From an uncultured Butyrivibrio sp. (GTDB lineage: Bacteria; Bacillota; Clostridia; Lachnospirales; Lachnospiraceae): DNA of 49,713 bases. Under the pieces are notes generated by a model. It saw nothing but the letters and a program-made list of their open reading frames with translations, was not told where the DNA came from and made no database searches. The position numbers and the translations under genes were made by a program. The stretch is from contig CAMORK010000012.1 in assembly GCA_946623755.1 (NCBI GenBank), positions 1 to 49,713 on the forward strand, written 5' to 3'. Of the stretch, positions 24,980 through 44,640 are shown piece after piece (positions within the stretch are counted from its first letter, which is position 1; each line of letters opens with the position of its first letter).

Positions 24980-26170
24980 TTACTGAACGGCTGCCTTAAG
25001 CTCTTCAACCTTATCAAGCTTCTCCCAGGGAAGGTTAAGGTCGTTGCGGCCGAAGTGTCCGTAAGCTGCTGTCTGCTTGTAGATAGGACGACGAAGGTCA
25101 AGCATCTTGATGATTCCTGCAGGGCGAAGGTCGAATACCTTACGAACTGCCTCTGTAAGCTTCTCATCAGAAACCTTACCTGTTCCGAATGTGTCTACAA
25201 GGATTGATGTAGGCTGTGCTACACCGATAGCATATGAGAGCTGGATCTCAGCCTTATCTGCAAGGCCTGCTGCTACGATATTCTTAGCAACGTATCTTGC
25301 TGCGTAAGCACCTGAACGGTCAACCTTTGTGCAGTCCTTACCTGAGAAAGCTCCGCCGCCGTGACGAGCTGCTCCGCCGTAAGTATCAACGATGATCTTA
25401 CGTCCTGTAAGTCCGGCATCACCCTGAGGTCCTCCGATTACGAAACGGCCTGTAGGATTGATGTAGATCTTGGTGTTAGCATCAACCAGGGAAGCATCAA
25501 CGATCGGATCGATAACCTGCTTTCTGATGTCCTCGTGGATCTGCTCCTGTGTAACCTTCTCATCATGCTGGGTTGAGATAACGATGGCCTCAAGTCTCTT
25601 AACCTTGCCATTCTCATCATACTCAACTGAAACCTGGCTCTTGCCGTCAGCACGAAGATAAGGAAGTGTTCCGTTCTTTCTGACTTCTGTAAGTCTCTTT
25701 GTGAGCTTGTGAGCAAGGCTGATAGCGTAAGGCATATACTCCTCAGTCTCGTTTGTGGCATAGCCGAACATCATACCCTGATCTCCGGCACCGATTGCCT
25801 CAAGCTGCTCATCTGTCATCTGATTCTCTTTAGCCTCAAGAGCCTTATCAACACCCATAGCGATATCAGCTGACTGCTGATCAAGTGCTACAAGTACAGC
25901 ACATGTGTTGCCGTCAAAGCCCTTCTCTGAAGAATCATAGCCGATCTCGCAAACTGTCTCTCTTGCGATCTTAGCATAGTCAACTACTGCCTTGGTTGTG
26001 ATCTCACCTGTGATGAGGATGAATCCTGTGCATGCTGCTGTCTCGCAGGCAACACGGCTCATAGGATCCTGTGCCATGCAGGCATCAAGAATTGCGTCTG
26101 AAATGTTATCGCAGATTTTGTCGGGATGTCCCTCTGTTACTGACTCGGATGTAAAAATAAATTTATCCAT
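24980..26170 (-). CDS. metK: S-adenosylmethionine synthetase
   Basis: Makes SAM from methionine and ATP. The 396 residues begin [21 protein letters not shown] and carry [12 protein letters not shown] (signature 1) and [16 protein letters not shown] (signature 2). The ATG at 26170 has AAAGGAAAAAG upstream and matches the family; an in-frame ATG at 26257 falls in the leader just after the riboswitch terminator and is rejected. Regulated by the SAM-I riboswitch upstream. Confidence 0.97.
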
Positions 26171-26257
26171 TCTTTTTCCTTTCTTGCGCTTCGCGCCGCT
26201 CTGAATTGCGTTATGGCAGACTCGAAATTGCTTCTCAATTCCTCTTCCCCATAACAC

Positions 26258-26289
26258 AAAAAACCGCTTGTTGCGTGCACAAACAAGCG
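26258..26289 (-). terminator. SAM riboswitch expression-platform terminator
   Basis: CCGCTTGTT (26264-26272) pairs with AACAAGCGG (26281-26289). On the minus strand it is followed by TTTTTT. It lies between the riboswitch aptamer and metK, so SAM binding should favour this stop. Confidence 0.9.
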
Positions 26290-26308
26290 GAACTGATTAG
26301 TTTCAGAT

Positions 26309-26450
26309 CCTCTTATTGCTCGTTGTATCTCGGCCATGTTGCGACTCGGCCTCGAAAGTTGCACGCTCAGGTTGGCACCTTCCTGATCTTAAGTCAAGGG
26401 GTTGCCGTGGCTTCACAGGTCCTATGTACCTCCACCACTCTGAATAAGAG
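26309..26450 (-). promoter_or_regulatory. SAM-I (S-box) riboswitch upstream of metK
   Basis: On the minus strand CTCTTAT (26450-26444) and ATAAGAG (26316-26310) make the P1 stem. Inside are the conserved S-box blocks: AGAGTGGTGGAGG, CCACGGCAACCCCTTGA, AGGAAGGTGCCAACC, and the P4 stem GAGGCCGAG. Binding of SAM sequesters the antiterminator and lets the terminator at 26258-26289 form; this is the standard feedback loop on SAM synthetase. Confidence 0.96.
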
Positions 26451-26567
26451 AACATTTAAAAATATTTAGTTACTCGGACACCGATATTTTGTGTCCGTTA
26501 AGCAATAATACATTAATGCATGGATAAAATCAATAGTATAAAATGAAATATTTTATTAACAGGTGAT

Positions 26568-26592
26568 AAAGTCGCTTGTGGGCGTAGAAAAA
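26568..26592. repeat. left inverted repeat of the nuclease-like cassette
   Basis: Its reverse complement, TTTTCTACGCCCACA followed by AGCGACTTT, matches the copies at 27714 and 27787 at 22 of 24 positions and the copy at 27641 at 20 of 24. The orientation is inverted, so the repeats face each other across the gene at 26834. TGATA lies just outside this end and also three bases beyond the first right copy, which may or may not be a target duplication. Confidence 0.7.
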
Positions 26593-26685
26593 TAAATATG
26601 CCTGCTTTATTATTTCATTTCTTAAATAGTAATATTTGTAATAGCGCTAATTTCTTAAGATTTGTTTAAGATTGGTCCAAATCTA

Positions 26686-26714
26686 TTTACATGTATATTC
26701 TCATTTGATATATT
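26686..26714 (+). promoter_or_regulatory. promoter of the nuclease-like gene
   Basis: TTTACA (26686-26691), a 17-base spacer and TATATT (26709-26714). The leader of about 110 bases holds a small hairpin, CCTGC/GCAGG at 26768-26781. A TCTTAAGA palindrome lies upstream at 26653-26660. The rest of 26451-26833 shows no gene. Confidence 0.55.
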
Positions 26715-26833
26715 CTGTTGCAGCGTTTCATCGAAAGCATTCTGCTCAGATGGCGCCCGAGTGTCTACCTGCTGTCGCAGGAACATTTCAACCAGTAAGT
26801 AAGAAACAGTATTTAAAGAAAGGAACTGAATAA

Positions 26834-27625
26834 TTGGACCAGACTACTTATTTTATTGACCGAAAGAAAAAACTTGAAGAAGAGATCAAGAGAGTTGAAA
26901 AGAAGTTATCTTCAATGCCCGAAGAGACTTTGGTCTATCACAAGCAGATAAAAAATGATAAGACATATGTCACTTTTTTCAAGCAATCCTTCATCAATGG
27001 AGAAAGAATACGAACTCTTCTTCCCAAAAAGAAAAACATGCGAGAGGCAAAGTTGCTAGCACAAAAAATGTATTTGTCACGTGCTCTTAATGACAAGAAA
27101 AACGAGTTAAAGTGCATAGATTTCTATTTAAAACATAGAAAGAATGAAAACTACTCCGATATGTTCAGGACAGAATCTCCATATCGAGAATTGCTAGTGG
27201 TCCAAAACTCTATCGCCAACGAATGGGAATATGCTCCATATGAGAAGAGTACAGATCATCCGGAGCATTTGATTCATCCGGCTCCAAAAGGAGAAATGGT
27301 TCGTTCCAAATCTGAGGCAGATATAGCTCAATCTCTATTCTCTCATAATATACCTTATAGGTATGAAGAAATACACGATATCTATGGCTCCCGTATAGCA
27401 ACCGACTTTACTATCTTGAATCCCAGGACAAATGAGATCATTCTCTGGGAACACTTTGGCCGCTGTGACGATCCCGGGTATCAAAGCACCGTCGATTATA
27501 AGATGTATCGGTACATTCGTGCAGGTTACCTTCCCGGACGCACTATGATCATAACCTATGAAGATAGTAAGCATCCATTTGTCTTTTTAGACGCTGAAGA
27601 GATAGTTCAAAAATATTTCCTCTAA
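26834..27625 (+). CDS. PD-(D/E)XK nuclease-like protein of unknown function
   Basis: A 263-residue protein with a TTG start (AAAGGA 11 bases upstream). Residues 8-110 are basic and helical, with heptad-like Glu/Lys stretches suggesting a coiled coil or nucleic-acid binding. Residues 155-260 look like a PD-(D/E)XK fold: E161 in RSKSEADIA, D191 in IATDFTILN, then E206-H207 in LWEHFG, where His stands in the place of the usual Lys; K223 could substitute. I recall related uncharacterised clostridial proteins with a WEHFG motif. The gene is visibly AT-richer than its neighbours and lies between inverted repeats, which suggests transfer. Its substrate and role are unknown. Confidence 0.72.
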   Translation: MDQTTYFIDRKKKLEEEIKRVEKKLSSMPEETLVYHKQIKNDKTYVTFFKQSFINGERIRTLLPKKKNMREAKLLAQKMYLSRALNDKKNELKCIDFYLKHRKNENYSDMFRTESPYRELLVVQNSIANEWEYAPYEKSTDHPEHLIHPAPKGEMVRSKSEADIAQSLFSHNIPYRYEEIHDIYGSRIATDFTILNPRTNEIILWEHFGRCDDPGYQSTVDYKMYRYIRAGYLPGRTMIITYEDSKHPFVFLDAEEIVQKYFL

Positions 27626-27640
27626 ATAGACCAATGACTA

Positions 27641-27859
27641 TTTTCTACGCCCATAGGGCACTTTTTCTGATATATGGATAAAGAAATCTAAGCTTTTAAT
27701 GGAAACAGGCGAATTTTCTACGCCCACAGGCTACTTTTTAGCGTATAGGTAGAAAAAACCCCTTGTGCAAATTTTTATCGTCTTGGCTTTCTACGCCCAC
27801 AGGCTACTTTTTAGCGTATAGGTAGAAAAGACACCCTTGCGCAAGCTTCAACTCAGCCT
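27641..27859 (+). repeat. 73-bp tandem repeat, three copies, right border of the cassette
   Basis: Copies start at 27641, 27714 and 27787, exactly 73 bases apart. Each begins TTTTCTACGCCCA (copy 3 has C for the first T). Copies 2 and 3 are identical over the next 28 bases, including GCTACTTTTTAGCG, and end this part with GTAGAAAA, which pairs with the first eight bases. The second half of each unit is more diverged (CCTTGTGCAA versus CCTTGCGCAA). Copy 1 is the most decayed. Confidence 0.8.
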
Positions 27860-27861
27860 AG

Positions 27862-27937
27862 CGCAGATGACGAAGCCCATCGCGGATGATGAAGCCCATC
27901 GCGGATGATGAAGCCCAGCGCCGGTGATGAAGCCTAG
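27862..27937. repeat. 19-bp tandem repeat, four copies
   Basis: Units start at 27862, 27881, 27900 and 27919, with consensus CGCGGATGATGAAGCCCAT. The first three are nearly identical; the fourth has five changes. Directly adjacent to the 73-bp repeats. Confidence 0.85.
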
Positions 27938-27961
27938 CGGCCCCGCGATACTCAAAAGGCA

Positions 27962-27996
27962 AAAAGAAAGCCCCGCGGGGCCAAGGCTCCGCGGGG
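27962..27996 (-). terminator. tex terminator
   Basis: CCCCGCGG (27971-27978) pairs with CCGCGGGG (27989-27996). On the minus strand CTTTCTTTTTG follows. It stands about 180 bases after the tex stop; the 37-bp repeats lie between. Confidence 0.7.
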
Positions 27997-28021
27997 AAAA
28001 CTTGCATAAAGGGTTTATTGA

Positions 28022-28132
28022 CAGCCGTATAGTCGCAACAAATCATGGGCTGTATCATCAGCCGTATAGTCGCAACAAATCATGAACTGTATCATCAGCC
28101 GCATAGTCGCAACAAATCATTATCTATATCCA
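28022..28132. repeat. 37-bp tandem repeat, three copies
   Basis: Copies start at 28022, 28059 and 28096. The unit begins CAGCCGTATAGTCGCAACAA and ends CTGTATCAT; the third copy decays at its end. GGCTG at the end of one unit and CAGCC at the start of the next can pair over TATCAT. There are no spacers, so this is not a CRISPR array. It lies in the 3' untranslated region of tex. Confidence 0.85.
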
Positions 28133-28177
28133 TAATCTTACAATCACTGCCAAAGCCCAACCTCACTTACCGAGTCA

Positions 28178-31060
28178 TCAGTCGTTGGCGTTGCCCTTGA
28201 AGATTACGATACCTTTCTTCTTGAACTTCTTGGGTGCTGCATCGCCGGCAGAAGCTGCGGAATCAGCGGATGCTGAAGGCGCGGGTCTTCTTGCAGATGA
28301 GGTTGCCGGAGCATCACCGGATGCAGGAGCGGGTCTTCTGGCTGATGATGTTGCAGGCGCATCGCCTGATGCAGATGCCTGTCTTCTAGCTGATGAAGTT
28401 GCAGCGCCTGTGCTCTTTGCGGCAGCGCCTTCACCGGCAGGAGCAGCCTTCTTGGCAGGAGCCGTTCTCTTGATTCCGGCTTCCTTGGCGAGCTGATCTA
28501 CAACTGAAACCTTCTTGGCTGCAACTTTTGCAGCATCTCCGCTTCCTGTGGACTTGCCGGATCCCGAAGCCCCTGAAGCGCCACCGGACTTGCCGGCTCC
28601 GCCCTTACCTCTCTCGACAGCCTTGGCTGCTGCCTCAGCAGCTACCTTGGCGGGATCCTGGATCTTCATGGTAAGGGATATCCTCTTCTTATCAAGTTCA
28701 ACATCAAGAACCTGAACGTCTACGATATCACCTACGCTGACAGCTTCAAGCGGATGCTTGATAAACTTGTCTGTAATGTGTGATATATGCACAAGGCCGT
28801 CCTGGTGAACACCTATATCTACAAAACAACCAAAGTCTATTACATTTCTTACTGTTCCCTTGAGAACCATACCGGGCTTTAAGTCCTTCATCTCAAGGAC
28901 ATCACTTCTTAAGATCGGAGCAGGCATGCTCTCACGAGGGTCTCTTGAAGGCTTCTCAAGCTCAGAGAGAATATCTGTAAGAGTGATCTCACCGATTCCA
29001 AGCTCCTCGGCAAGCTTCTTTTTATCTGACTCGGAAACTTTCTTTGAAAGACTTCCAGCTCCTGATGCAGCACCGGTCTGAGCTCCGCTTGTCGAAGCGC
29101 CGTTACCGTTCTGTGCCTTCTGACCTTTGCCGCCCTTTGCGTCATTAGAATCCTCAACAACAGCAAGATTGCTTCCTGCAAGGGCTGCAGCCAGTGCTGC
29201 TCCCATAGCTGTAGAAGTATTTCTTATAACAACCTGCTTGGGCTTCTTCTGTGGACGCGGCTTGTCCTCCGCCTTGGCAGCGGGCTTCTCAAGTGCAGCT
29301 TTAGCTGCGTTCTTCTGAGCAGCTCTTACATCATCAAATGTAATGCCAAGTTTCTCCATAAGCTTCAAAGTAGCCTCATAGGACTCAGGATGGACGCTTG
29401 TTGCATCGAGAGGATTCTCTCCGTCAGCGATCCTTAAAAATCCCGCGCACTGCTCATAAGCTTTTGGTCCAAGCTTTGGTACGTTCAAAAGGTCTGCTCT
29501 GCTCTCGAATTTACCGTGCTCTTCTCTGTAGTCGACGATATTCTTGGCAATAACCTTACTGATACCTGAAATATACTGAAGGAGAGGTGCTGAAGCAGTA
29601 TTAAGATCAACACCGACCTTGTTAACGCAGTCTTCTACTACGCCTTCAAGGGTTTCTCCAAGCTTTTTCTGGTTCATGTCGTGCTGGTACTGACCAACAC
29701 CAATGGACTTAGGATCTATCTTAACCAGCTCGGCAAGCGGATCCTGAAGTCTTCTTGCGATAGAAGCTGCACTCCTTTGTCCCACATCAAACTGAGGGAA
29801 CTCTTCTGTGGCCAGCTTACTTGCAGAATAAACAGAAGCTCCTGCCTCATTGACAATGACATACTGAAGAGGTCTGTCAAGCTCATGGATAAGCTCAACG
29901 ATAACCTGCTCAGACTCACGTGAAGCAGTACCGTTTCCAACAGAAATAAGATCAACATCATACTTATCGATAAGCTTCTTAAGATCAGCCTTGGCTTCCT
30001 CAACCTTAAACTGCGGAGCTGTAGGATAGATGACCTTGGTATCAAGAACCTTACCTGTTGGGTCTACGACAGCAAGCTTACAGCCTGTTCTGAAGGCAGG
30101 ATCCCAACCAAGGACAGTCTTGCCTGCAATGGGAGGTGCCATAAGGAGCTGAGTGAGGTTCTTGCCAAAAACAGTTATGGCGCCATCCTCAGCCTTCTCT
30201 GTAAGCTCGTTTCTGATATCTCTTTCAATTGCGGGAGCTATGAGTCTCTCATAAGCATCCTGGTTGATCTCCTCGATAACAGGAGTTGTGATCGGGTTCT
30301 CATTCTTTAACATCTTCTTGTTAAGGAACTGAAGGATCTGCTCCTCGGGAGCTACGATCTTAACCACAAGGAACTTCTCTGCCTCTCCTCTGTTAAGCGC
30401 CAGAACTCTGTGTCCAAGCACCTTGCTGATGGGTTCCTCATAGTCATAGTACATCTCATAAACGGACTGGGCTTTCTCATCCTTGGCTTTACTGGTGAGC
30501 ACACCCTTCTCCATGGTTGCCTCACGGATATATGTACGGAAATCAGCGTTGTCAGACACATCCTCAGCAATGATGTCCATAGCGCCCTGAAGGGCGTCCG
30601 CTGCGTTCTCTACACCTTTTTCTGCATCGACAAATGCTGCTGCCTCGTCAAGGAGCGGCTTTTCTGTTTCCTGAGCAAGCAGTATCTCTGCCAATGGCTC
30701 AAGGCCTTTCTCTCTTGCCACAGAAGCTCTTGTCTTTCTCTTTGGTCTGTAAGGAAGATAAAGATCCTCTATAGCCACCATTGTCTCAGCCGCAACAATC
30801 TTGGCTCTGAGCTCATCTGTCATCTTGCCCTGCTCTTCAATTGATGCAAGAACCTGCTCTCTTCTCTCCTCAAGGCCTCTCAGATATTTGAGTCTCTCAT
30901 CGAGATTACGGAGCTGTTCGTCATTGAGCGATCCGGTGACTTCCTTTCTGTATCGGGAAATGAAAGGAATAGTGTTGCCCTCGTCAATAAGTTTGACTGC
31001 TGCCTCAACCTGCCATTTCTCAACATTTAGTTCTTCTTTGATCTTTAAAACAATGTCCAT
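28178..31060 (-). CDS. tex: Tex-family RNA-binding transcription accessory protein
   Basis: A nucleic-acid-binding protein of the Tex/Spt6 type, 960 residues; typical Tex has about 720-780. In order: helical N-terminal region with KWQVEAAVKLIDEGNTIPFISRYRKE; YqgF-like domain (about 315-440, VLGWDPAFRTGCKLAVVD); helix-hairpin-helix region (about 490-570); an extra 110-residue Ala/Lys/Gly-rich insert; an S1 domain (about 720-790, LKGTVRNVIDFGCFVDIG). A low-complexity tail with three ATSSARR-containing repeats and a basic KKFKKKG follows. ATG at 31060 has GGAGAGG upstream and begins MDIVLKIKEELN. The insert and tail make it unusually long. Confidence 0.93.
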   Translation of the reverse strand: MDIVLKIKEELNVEKWQVEAAVKLIDEGNTIPFISRYRKEVTGSLNDEQLRNLDERLKYLRGLEERREQVLASIEEQGKMTDELRAKIVAAETMVAIEDLYLPYRPKRKTRASVAREKGLEPLAEILLAQETEKPLLDEAAAFVDAEKGVENAADALQGAMDIIAEDVSDNADFRTYIREATMEKGVLTSKAKDEKAQSVYEMYYDYEEPISKVLGHRVLALNRGEAEKFLVVKIVAPEEQILQFLNKKMLKNENPITTPVIEEINQDAYERLIAPAIERDIRNELTEKAEDGAITVFGKNLTQLLMAPPIAGKTVLGWDPAFRTGCKLAVVDPTGKVLDTKVIYPTAPQFKVEEAKADLKKLIDKYDVDLISVGNGTASRESEQVIVELIHELDRPLQYVIVNEAGASVYSASKLATEEFPQFDVGQRSAASIARRLQDPLAELVKIDPKSIGVGQYQHDMNQKKLGETLEGVVEDCVNKVGVDLNTASAPLLQYISGISKVIAKNIVDYREEHGKFESRADLLNVPKLGPKAYEQCAGFLRIADGENPLDATSVHPESYEATLKLMEKLGITFDDVRAAQKNAAKAALEKPAAKAEDKPRPQKKPKQVVIRNTSTAMGAALAAALAGSNLAVVEDSNDAKGGKGQKAQNGNGASTSGAQTGAASGAGSLSKKVSESDKKKLAEELGIGEITLTDILSELEKPSRDPRESMPAPILRSDVLEMKDLKPGMVLKGTVRNVIDFGCFVDIGVHQDGLVHISHITDKFIKHPLEAVSVGDIVDVQVLDVELDKKRISLTMKIQDPAKVAAEAAAKAVERGKGGAGKSGGASGASGSGKSTGSGDAAKVAAKKVSVVDQLAKEAGIKRTAPAKKAAPAGEGAAAKSTGAATSSARRQASASGDAPATSSARRPAPASGDAPATSSARRPAPSASADSAASAGDAAPKKFKKKGIVIFKGNAND

Positions 31061-43828: not shown

Positions 43829-43861
43829 ATGTTCTCCCCCTCGCATATGTATGTGATGACG

Positions 43862-43998
43862 CGATCACGTATTGCTCCGCTTCGCTCTCGCAATCCTACG
43901 CACATGCGGAATCCGCACTATCGTGCTACTTCCTTATGTACGTTCGGTCTTCAAACTTGAATTTTTTCTCGTGCGAGCACGAAAAATTCAAGTTTGAA
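43862..43998. other. hairpin cluster between upp and the dCMP deaminase gene
   Basis: CGATCACG and ATTGC/GCAAT pairs occur near 43862-43900, TGCGGAATCCGCA at about 43915-43927, and a long hairpin at 43950-43998 whose arms are TTCAAACTTGAATTTTT and GAAAAATTCAAGTTTGAA. Read on the minus strand the last one could terminate upp transcription, although no T run follows the stem. Confidence 0.5.
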
Positions 43999-44010
43999 TC
44001 CCTATATCGC

Positions 44011-44640
44011 TCACTTGGTTCCGAAAATTCTGTCTCCCGCATCTCCAAGTCCCGGAACAATGTATCCGTGCTCGTTAAGATGCTCGTCAAGTGCTCCAAC
44101 GTAAATGTCTACATCAGGATGTGCTTCCTGCATAGCCTTAAGTCCCTCAGGTGCTGCAATGATGCACATGAAATGAATGTGCTTGCATCCTCTGTCCTTG
44201 AGCATCTGGATAGCTGCAACTGAAGATCCGCCTGTTGCCAGCATAGGGTCAACAACGAAGATCTCTCTCTCAGAAACATCTGCAGGCATTTTGCAGTAAT
44301 ACTCAACAGGCTTAAGTGTCTCAGGATCTCTGTAAAGACCGATGTGACCAACCTTGGCTGTAGGAATAAGTGTAAGCATTCCGTCAACCATTCCAAGACC
44401 TGCACGAAGGATCGGAACTACGCAGAGCTTTCTTCCCTTAAGTTCCTTGACTGTTGTCTTGCATATAGGTGTCTCAATTTCAACATCCTGGAGCTTAAGA
44501 TCTCTTGTTGCCTCATAGCAGATCAGCATAGCGATCTCACTGATAGTCTCTCTGAAATCTCTTGTTCCTGTTGTTGTTCTTCTGATAAATCCAATTTTGT
44601 GCTGGATCAAAGGATGATCCATAATTACTACTTTGCTCAT
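44011..44640 (-). CDS. upp: uracil phosphoribosyltransferase
   Basis: Pyrimidine salvage: uracil plus PRPP to UMP. The 209 residues have [22 protein letters not shown] near the start, [14 protein letters not shown], the PRPP loop [12 protein letters not shown], and the C-terminal uracil-binding [30 protein letters not shown]. Cotranscribed with rpiB (22 bases) upstream. It fits beside the dCMP deaminase gene in a nucleotide group. Confidence 0.97.

Follow-up and report, generated by a model that had tools for sequence, protein, structure and literature searches.

A PD-(D/E)XK-like nuclease gene with evenly spaced palindromes: a possible undescribed kind of gene-plus-repeat system in Butyrivibrio and related bacteria

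Introduction

Dispersed palindromes of the repetitive extragenic palindrome (REP) type are tied to HuH tyrosine enzymes, and GTAG is the tetranucleotide of canonical REPs (PMC6006769). A REPtron is defined by an HuH-Y1 enzyme together with its own dispersed REPs (PMC6006769, PMC8266576, PMC3116915). The present work concerns a stretch of 49,713 nucleotides, hereafter the window, from an uncultured Butyrivibrio sp. (assembly GCA_946623755.1, contig CAMORK010000012.1, our contig C12), in which a gene for a PD-(D/E)XK-like nuclease lies among copies of an interrupted palindrome. An earlier examination of the letters alone (the original prediction) had proposed that this gene, bordered by facing repeats, is a mobile or selfish cassette. 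Below, G numbers designate genomes, G000 being that of the window (2.3 Mb, 60% complete), and L numbers the loci of nuclease homologues. The proposed link between gene and repeats was confirmed in part and its interpretation supported in part, and the two may form an undescribed kind of gene-plus-repeat system.

Results

The nuclease has 263 amino acids (aa), with an N-terminal part made of a helix, three strands and a long helix, followed by a restriction-endonuclease-like domain. In fold comparison this C-terminal domain aligned with endonuclease folds, as expected from the original prediction. The catalytic-type residues singled out at that time, E161, D191 and E206-H207, were invariant across 28 aligned homologues, and the TTG start is kept in the orthologue of the sister genome G584. 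Family profile searches recognised no transposase family in the window protein, again as predicted. The Pfam and NCBIfam matches obtained for 28 members, with 25 of the 29 Pfam families listed, included no HuH/Y1 family. Comparison with the G584 orthologue gave a dN/dS of 0.07, with a saturated dS of 2.8, which indicates purifying selection on the gene.

To the right of the gene stand the three direct repeat copies that had been announced (Table 1). By-eye alignment gave a unit of about 43 bp, TTTTCTAC-GCCCANAGG-CACTTTTT-NNN-ATATAN-GTAGAAAA, with GTAG at its ends; starts follow each other at 73-74 bp, and the common TTTCTACGCCCA cores at 73 bp. The inverted left copy is equally present. It is only half of a unit and not the end of an element, so that the idea of facing repeats as cassette borders was abandoned. 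The same holds for the target duplication once suspected in TGATA, which starts at 26564 and 27668: the second copy lies within right-hand unit 1 instead of beside the outer end.

This repeat is scattered over the genome. The TTTCTACGCCCA core has 32 exact copies in G000, 4 of them at the window locus, and the reversed control has none. When up to 2 mismatches and gaps up to 160 bp were allowed, the dispersed copies, at 14 loci, gave 28 neighbour gaps, 16 of them of 73 bp, 7 of 63 and 2 of 53; the remaining three measured 14, 59 and 71 bp. Sites tend to lie in intergenic DNA, if not strictly: copy centres fell inside open reading frames (ORFs) of at least 120 codons in 4 of 28 cases in G000 and 6 of 21 in the genome G221, such frames covering 0.29 and 0.51 of the sampled DNA, respectively. 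Among the four other homologues of G000, L011 adjoins a 43-bp array and L012 single 12-mer pairs only.

Of 299 genomes from the family, 99 contained homologues of the nuclease. Out of 304 loci in a public genome collection, the best 80, mostly titled Lachnospiraceae, were retained with flanks of up to 6 kb. Palindromes or short repeats occurred within 600 bp of the gene, on at least one side, at 53 of these 80 loci, including 37 with palindromes of 32-36 bp, which supports the proposed link of gene and repeats across genomes. As a control for non-coding DNA, gene-adjacent windows of 600 bp with at least 40% of their length outside ORFs were compared with windows of the same kind more than 1.5 kb from the gene. 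Next to the gene 43 of 76 windows had a palindrome or short-range repeat, and far from it 10 of 99 (Fisher p 2e-11); for 32-36-bp palindromes alone the figures were 31 of 76 and 5 of 99 (p 6e-9), both p values being optimistic because several loci are orthologous.

Palindromes with six-base arms and GGG/CCC ends reached 0.61 per 600 bp upstream of the gene (75 windows) and 0.90 downstream (72 windows), compared to 0.038 at a distance of 1.8-6 kb (832 windows). Thirteen other end triplets increased less near the gene than GGG did. The nearest, TGG, a class that overlaps GGG, gave 0.33 and 0.83 against 0.070 far away, and CCC gave 0.24 and 0.14 against 0.029. In non-ORF DNA palindromes amounted to 1.35 per kb near the gene and 0.35 far from it; a repeat-density profile, superseded by the window test, had given a small contrast in such DNA. 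At two of the 80 loci, L112 and L140, a stop interrupts the matched frame early, and the downstream windows taken there therefore cover coding DNA; both loci were kept in the palindrome, spacing and window counts. We conclude that the association of gene and repeats is real and not a product of chance.

The near-gene palindromes are uniform in length, 85 of 102 measuring 33-35 bp. Over 94 sites with GGG/CCC ends, taken from the 37 loci, arm pairing was complete at positions 4-6, as the search demanded, and fell to 0.27-0.39 at positions 7-12; AT content was 72% in the central 10 bp and 44% in the arms. As pairing ends after the six-base arms, these sites resemble two protein half-sites, not hairpins. 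An RNA reading was rejected for this lack of pairing beyond the arms. Rfam searches on seven element loci returned five matches, all under the gathering scores, the best being Cyano-2 at 26 bits, against a required 40 (E 0.0044), overlapping an element of G280. The arm hexamer is uniform within most of 40 loci and differs between them (GGGTAT, GGGCAT, GGGTCT, GGGCAA, GGGCGT, GGGTAC), a few loci mixing two.

Spacing is equally strict. Between 30 and 100 bp, near-gene start-to-start gaps took only the values 40-42, 51-53, 60-63, 68-73 and 80-83 bp; outside this range, gaps of 11, 14 and at least 103 bp were recorded. Tested for a 10.0-bp period, 61 pooled gaps gave a resultant of 0.823, a value reached by none of 2000 uniform draws. 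Of the 37 gaps in 19 stretches sampled from G221, with the gene locus among them and a tolerance of 2 mismatches, 29 measured 51-54 or 80-82 bp, which defines three-site units. Steps of 51 and 81 bp were found again in G280, which belongs to another genus, inside a 209-bp unit. Four full copies of this unit exist, one beside the gene and the others, 74-80% identical to it, at unlinked places. At L143, L145, L146 and L147 the three-site unit of G280 occurs with a conserved tail (about GATACGGGAGGGGGGAAT) past the third site.

Dispersal was then scored in the 299 genomes. The GGGTCT class, predicted from the gene locus of G221, was counted 35 times in G221 itself and 6 times in G288, but no more than twice in any of the 297 others. 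G221 and G288 both carry the gene; the 6 copies of G288 are weak evidence alone, because a reversed GGGTCT control reaches 5 in one genome. For the GGGYAT class, all four genomes with at least 5 copies carry the gene (chance 0.0115). The pattern GGGCATAN{8,38}TATGCCC singled out two outlier genomes, G086 and G280, each of which has the gene; a single hexamer cannot stand for all site classes. The five matches to the class pattern in G143 all stand at the gene locus, and none elsewhere. Copies of the window repeat within the genus numbered 32 in G000, 18 in G584 and 3 in G611, and none of the other 38 genomes exceeded 2, a value that the reversed control also reaches there; of these 41 genomes, only G000 and G584 have a listed homologue at least 60% identical.

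The gene occupies one metK-adjacent site in three species, G000, G584 (71% identical) and G590 (55%). The arrays at this site have different sequences and a common period of 72-73 bp, with 3 right-hand units in G000, 5 + 6 units in G584 and 4 in G590. A G584 paralogue situated elsewhere (61%) adjoins a fourth array type, made of 5 units at 74 bp. Gene-adjacent arrays therefore differ between paralogues and between orthologues, and the covariation of motif and protein, put up for testing in the original prediction, is seen at this one site in three species. Homologues of G602 and G586, 50% and 49% identical, lie on the opposite side of metK.

An empty site, whose existence in a sister strain had been suggested as a check, was found in G611, the missing segment being wider than originally noted. 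The window blocks matched by G611 are 24980-26536, 27963-28026 and 28176-30598, the first and second being separated in G611 by 75 bp of other sequence. Compared to G584, it lacks exactly 2,034 bp, which is the whole arrays-gene-arrays module. The left flanks are 96% identical over 1,676 bp, right up to the junction, and the right flanks 98% over 56 bp, then 80% over 282 bp and 92% over 2,478 bp. The difference may be due to a gain in G584 or to a loss in G611. At another place, L082 (5435-8361) and L109 (3853-5201) have flanks 93-95% identical around nuclease genes of 73.6% DNA identity in opposite orientation, a case of gene turnover at one locus. In the orthologous loci L074, L080, L104 and L108 the gene stays at one site.

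In the window, metK and an S-adenosylmethionine (SAM) riboswitch stand on one side of the nuclease gene, and on the other a gene with an S1-like match below cut-off. The promoter proposed for the gene corresponds to a promoter-like TTTACA-17-TATATT, in a region with 7 such sites against 4.9 expected from shuffles. The leader, 26633-26834, is conserved in two G584 copies, with this promoter-like site and CCTGC-NNNN-GCAGG followed by AACATTTC. Two more direct-repeat arrays, at 27855-27949 (19 nt x 4) and 28011-28121 (37 nt x 3), separate the palindrome array from the next gene. Rfam found nothing in the window except the SAM riboswitch and a Clostridiales-1 small RNA (43860-44011, minus strand, 95.7 bits).

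Carriage by a phage or plasmid was considered and rejected. Searches with the window protein gave three matches, partial and weak, in phage records; in addition, one viral contig matched partially. The G143 homologue matched 9 plasmid records, 8 annotated as helicase or AAA ATPase and 1 without annotation. In plasmid records H4-H11, from unrelated bacteria, the nuclease domain matches fall under AAA ATPase, RecQ or RecD-like helicase genes.

Table 1. Coordinates of the nuclease gene and associated features in the window
Feature	Position	Strand	Basis or remark
Segment missing from sister genome G611	about 26537-27962		alignment, approximate borders
Half of a 43-bp array unit, inverted, left of the gene	26568-26591	-	22 of 24 bases match 27714-27737
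Promoter-like TTTACA-17-TATATT 5' of the nuclease gene	26686-26714	+	aligned in two G584 copies
PD-(D/E)XK-like nuclease gene, 263 aa, TTG start	26834-27625	+	ORF, profile match, alignment, fold comparison
Array unit 1, degenerate right arm	27641-27683	+	
Array unit 2, inverted arms TTTTCTAC / GTAGAAAA	27714-27756	+	
Array unit 3, core 73 bp from unit 2 core	27788-27829	+	

Discussion

We favour, with a probability of roughly 0.55 once the mechanism is included, the reading that a gene-plus-repeat system is formed by the PD-(D/E)XK-like nuclease and a family of interrupted palindromes belonging to it, which lie in arrays beside the gene and, in those genomes where they were counted throughout, elsewhere on the chromosome too. 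Cognate recognition taken alone is rated higher than this complete model. We infer binding, dimerisation, cleavage and dissemination of the arrays, in the following manner. The protein would dimerise, each N-terminal part binding one half-site of six bases (for example GGGTCT, GGGCAT, or TTTTCTAC in G000), and the nuclease domains would act on the AT-rich centre of the gap of about 21 bp. Several dimers sitting side by side on one helix face would hold the spacing to steps of 10 bp. Repair following a cut or nick would then place copies of the arrays elsewhere. The arrays would thereby spread in the way assumed for REPs and their RAYT, and the gene-and-array module itself may be gained or lost as a unit.

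A broader proposal, which we put at somewhat less than even odds, is that of a new class in which dimers on helically phased arrays copy them by double-strand cutting, with half-site specificity shifting as the gene diverges, in a family widespread among Lachnospiraceae-type gut bacteria. If true, REP-type systems would have had a second, independent origin, on an unrelated restriction-endonuclease-like protein. The family would also supply compact natural nucleases, with six-base half-sites that one might read from the DNA beside each gene, and it would make testable how a many-copy target coexists with its own nuclease.

Several observations weigh against the favoured reading, besides the optimistic Fisher values and the weak count of G288. 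No palindrome or repeat signal was detected within 600 bp at 27 of the 80 loci, and no repeat at two of the four other G000 homologues, L013 and L010, the latter with no more than 254 bp downstream of it. Over 40 loci, arm similarity followed protein identity weakly (r 0.115, 185 of 2000 permutations being as high). Gene carriers had no significant excess of GGGYAT, the 99 of them totalling 47 copies and the 200 other genomes 51 (permutation p 0.075, rank test p 0.76). The 18 dispersed copies counted in G584 belong to the window type, its two close genes adjoin arrays TTTCTATACC and CTTTTACCTGTC, and the dispersed units are a mixture, which means that array and gene are not strictly matched. 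G611 (64% complete) has its 3 window-type copies without a close gene. Spacers were unrelated among five aligned three-site units of G221, and recent copying is therefore not seen there. Neither a target duplication nor a terminal inverted repeat was visible by eye at the 2,034-bp G584 module compared to the empty site of G611. Copies scattered over G000 away from the gene go half way towards what the original prediction took as a sign of chance; unit size and spacing are strict in these copies, and a dispersed-repeat system therefore fits them better than chance.

A pure accident of AT-rich, repeat-prone intergenic DNA is very improbable. Two unrelated tandem repeats do adjoin the window array, and one distant window in ten also carries a signal (10 of 99), but the enrichment near the gene, the sharp length and spacing and the genome-specific dispersal of a predicted class argue otherwise. 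Hardly more credible is that another enzyme, RAYT or an insertion sequence encoded elsewhere, spreads the arrays, the nuclease gene merely tending to occupy the same repeat-rich intergenic islands. The loci devoid of arrays would suit such a mover, as would the unlikeness of most G584 dispersed copies to the arrays at its two close genes, and the G000 unit does end in GTAG, the REP tetranucleotide (PMC6006769). Against this, no more than 3 of 94 GGG-type sites have a GTAG close to one end, distant windows seldom carry such sites, and at a single site different gene versions come with different array types.

Two alternatives leave the protein its central place. It could be a domesticated site-specific DNA-binding protein, the arrays being binding stations, for regulation or chromosome organisation, that persist because they are bound. 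We hold this for unlikely, though it agrees with the purifying selection on the gene, with an array of the same spacing common to G584 and G611 at corresponding places, and with the G221 units, which keep half-sites and spacing amid unrelated spacers as maintained binding sites would. Invariant catalytic-type residues speak against a mere binder, as do the presence or absence of the module between genomes at the metK site and the 209-bp units of G280, alike at unlinked places. A little less likely again, gene and arrays could be a small transposon or homing-type element, with a TnsA-like or EDxHD-like nuclease and multi-site ends, whose remnants or non-autonomous relatives would be the dispersed arrays. 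To the absence of target duplication and terminal inverted repeats at the G584 module are added, on the negative side, the orientation of the two arrays at the gene, which is the same in G584 and G143 but opposite in G221, and the fixity of the gene in the four orthologous loci. The neighbourhood does not favour such an element either: the largest cluster of neighbours, response-regulator-like by eye, reached 10 of the 80 loci when ORFs of at least 110 aa within 4 kb were considered.

Among matches listed from the open-access literature (titles and abstract starts), no earlier report of such a nuclease-array pairing was found. The system differs from insertion sequences and transposons by the features lacking, by eye, at the one G584 module, and from Tn7-like TnsA by this same lack of target duplication and by its neighbours: linked TnsB/TnsC partners were not found, given the cluster sizes above and with no TnsB profile run. 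Compared to the EDxHD homing endonuclease I-Bth0305I and to Vsr, its candidate sites persist in tens of copies, and the surroundings of the gene show no apparent intron or intein, although no dedicated search was made. A C-terminal nuclease domain is shared with AAA, RecQ and RecD-like proteins and with the candidate defence protein PDC-S68. The PDC-S68 model matches window residues 138-260 (1.8e-22) through its positions 1090-1217 of 1,221 only, and is thus no full-length counterpart of a protein of 263 aa.

The REPtron (TnpAREP/RAYT with REP, BIME or REPIN) comes closest: a single gene, neighbouring palindromic copies and a repeat dispersed in the genome. The repeat type may also tend to differ with the gene, as it does between the paralogues and orthologues described, the overall correlation being weak and the dispersed units of G584 mixed. 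A gene flanked by genome-dispersed repeats is indeed what G000, G221 and G280 have, G143 being different. Differences lie in the enzyme, PD-(D/E)XK-like here instead of an HuH tyrosine enzyme, and in the sites, which have six-base arms separated by about 21 bp and form arrays with steps of 10 bp. The inner arms are unpaired and GTAG is as infrequent as stated above, so that the GGG-type sites are not GTAG-tagged hairpins, although the G000 unit does end in GTAG. With a similar layout, and an enzyme and site type that are unlike, the system would therefore work like a REPtron without being one: the layout is shared, and the enzyme and site architecture are new.
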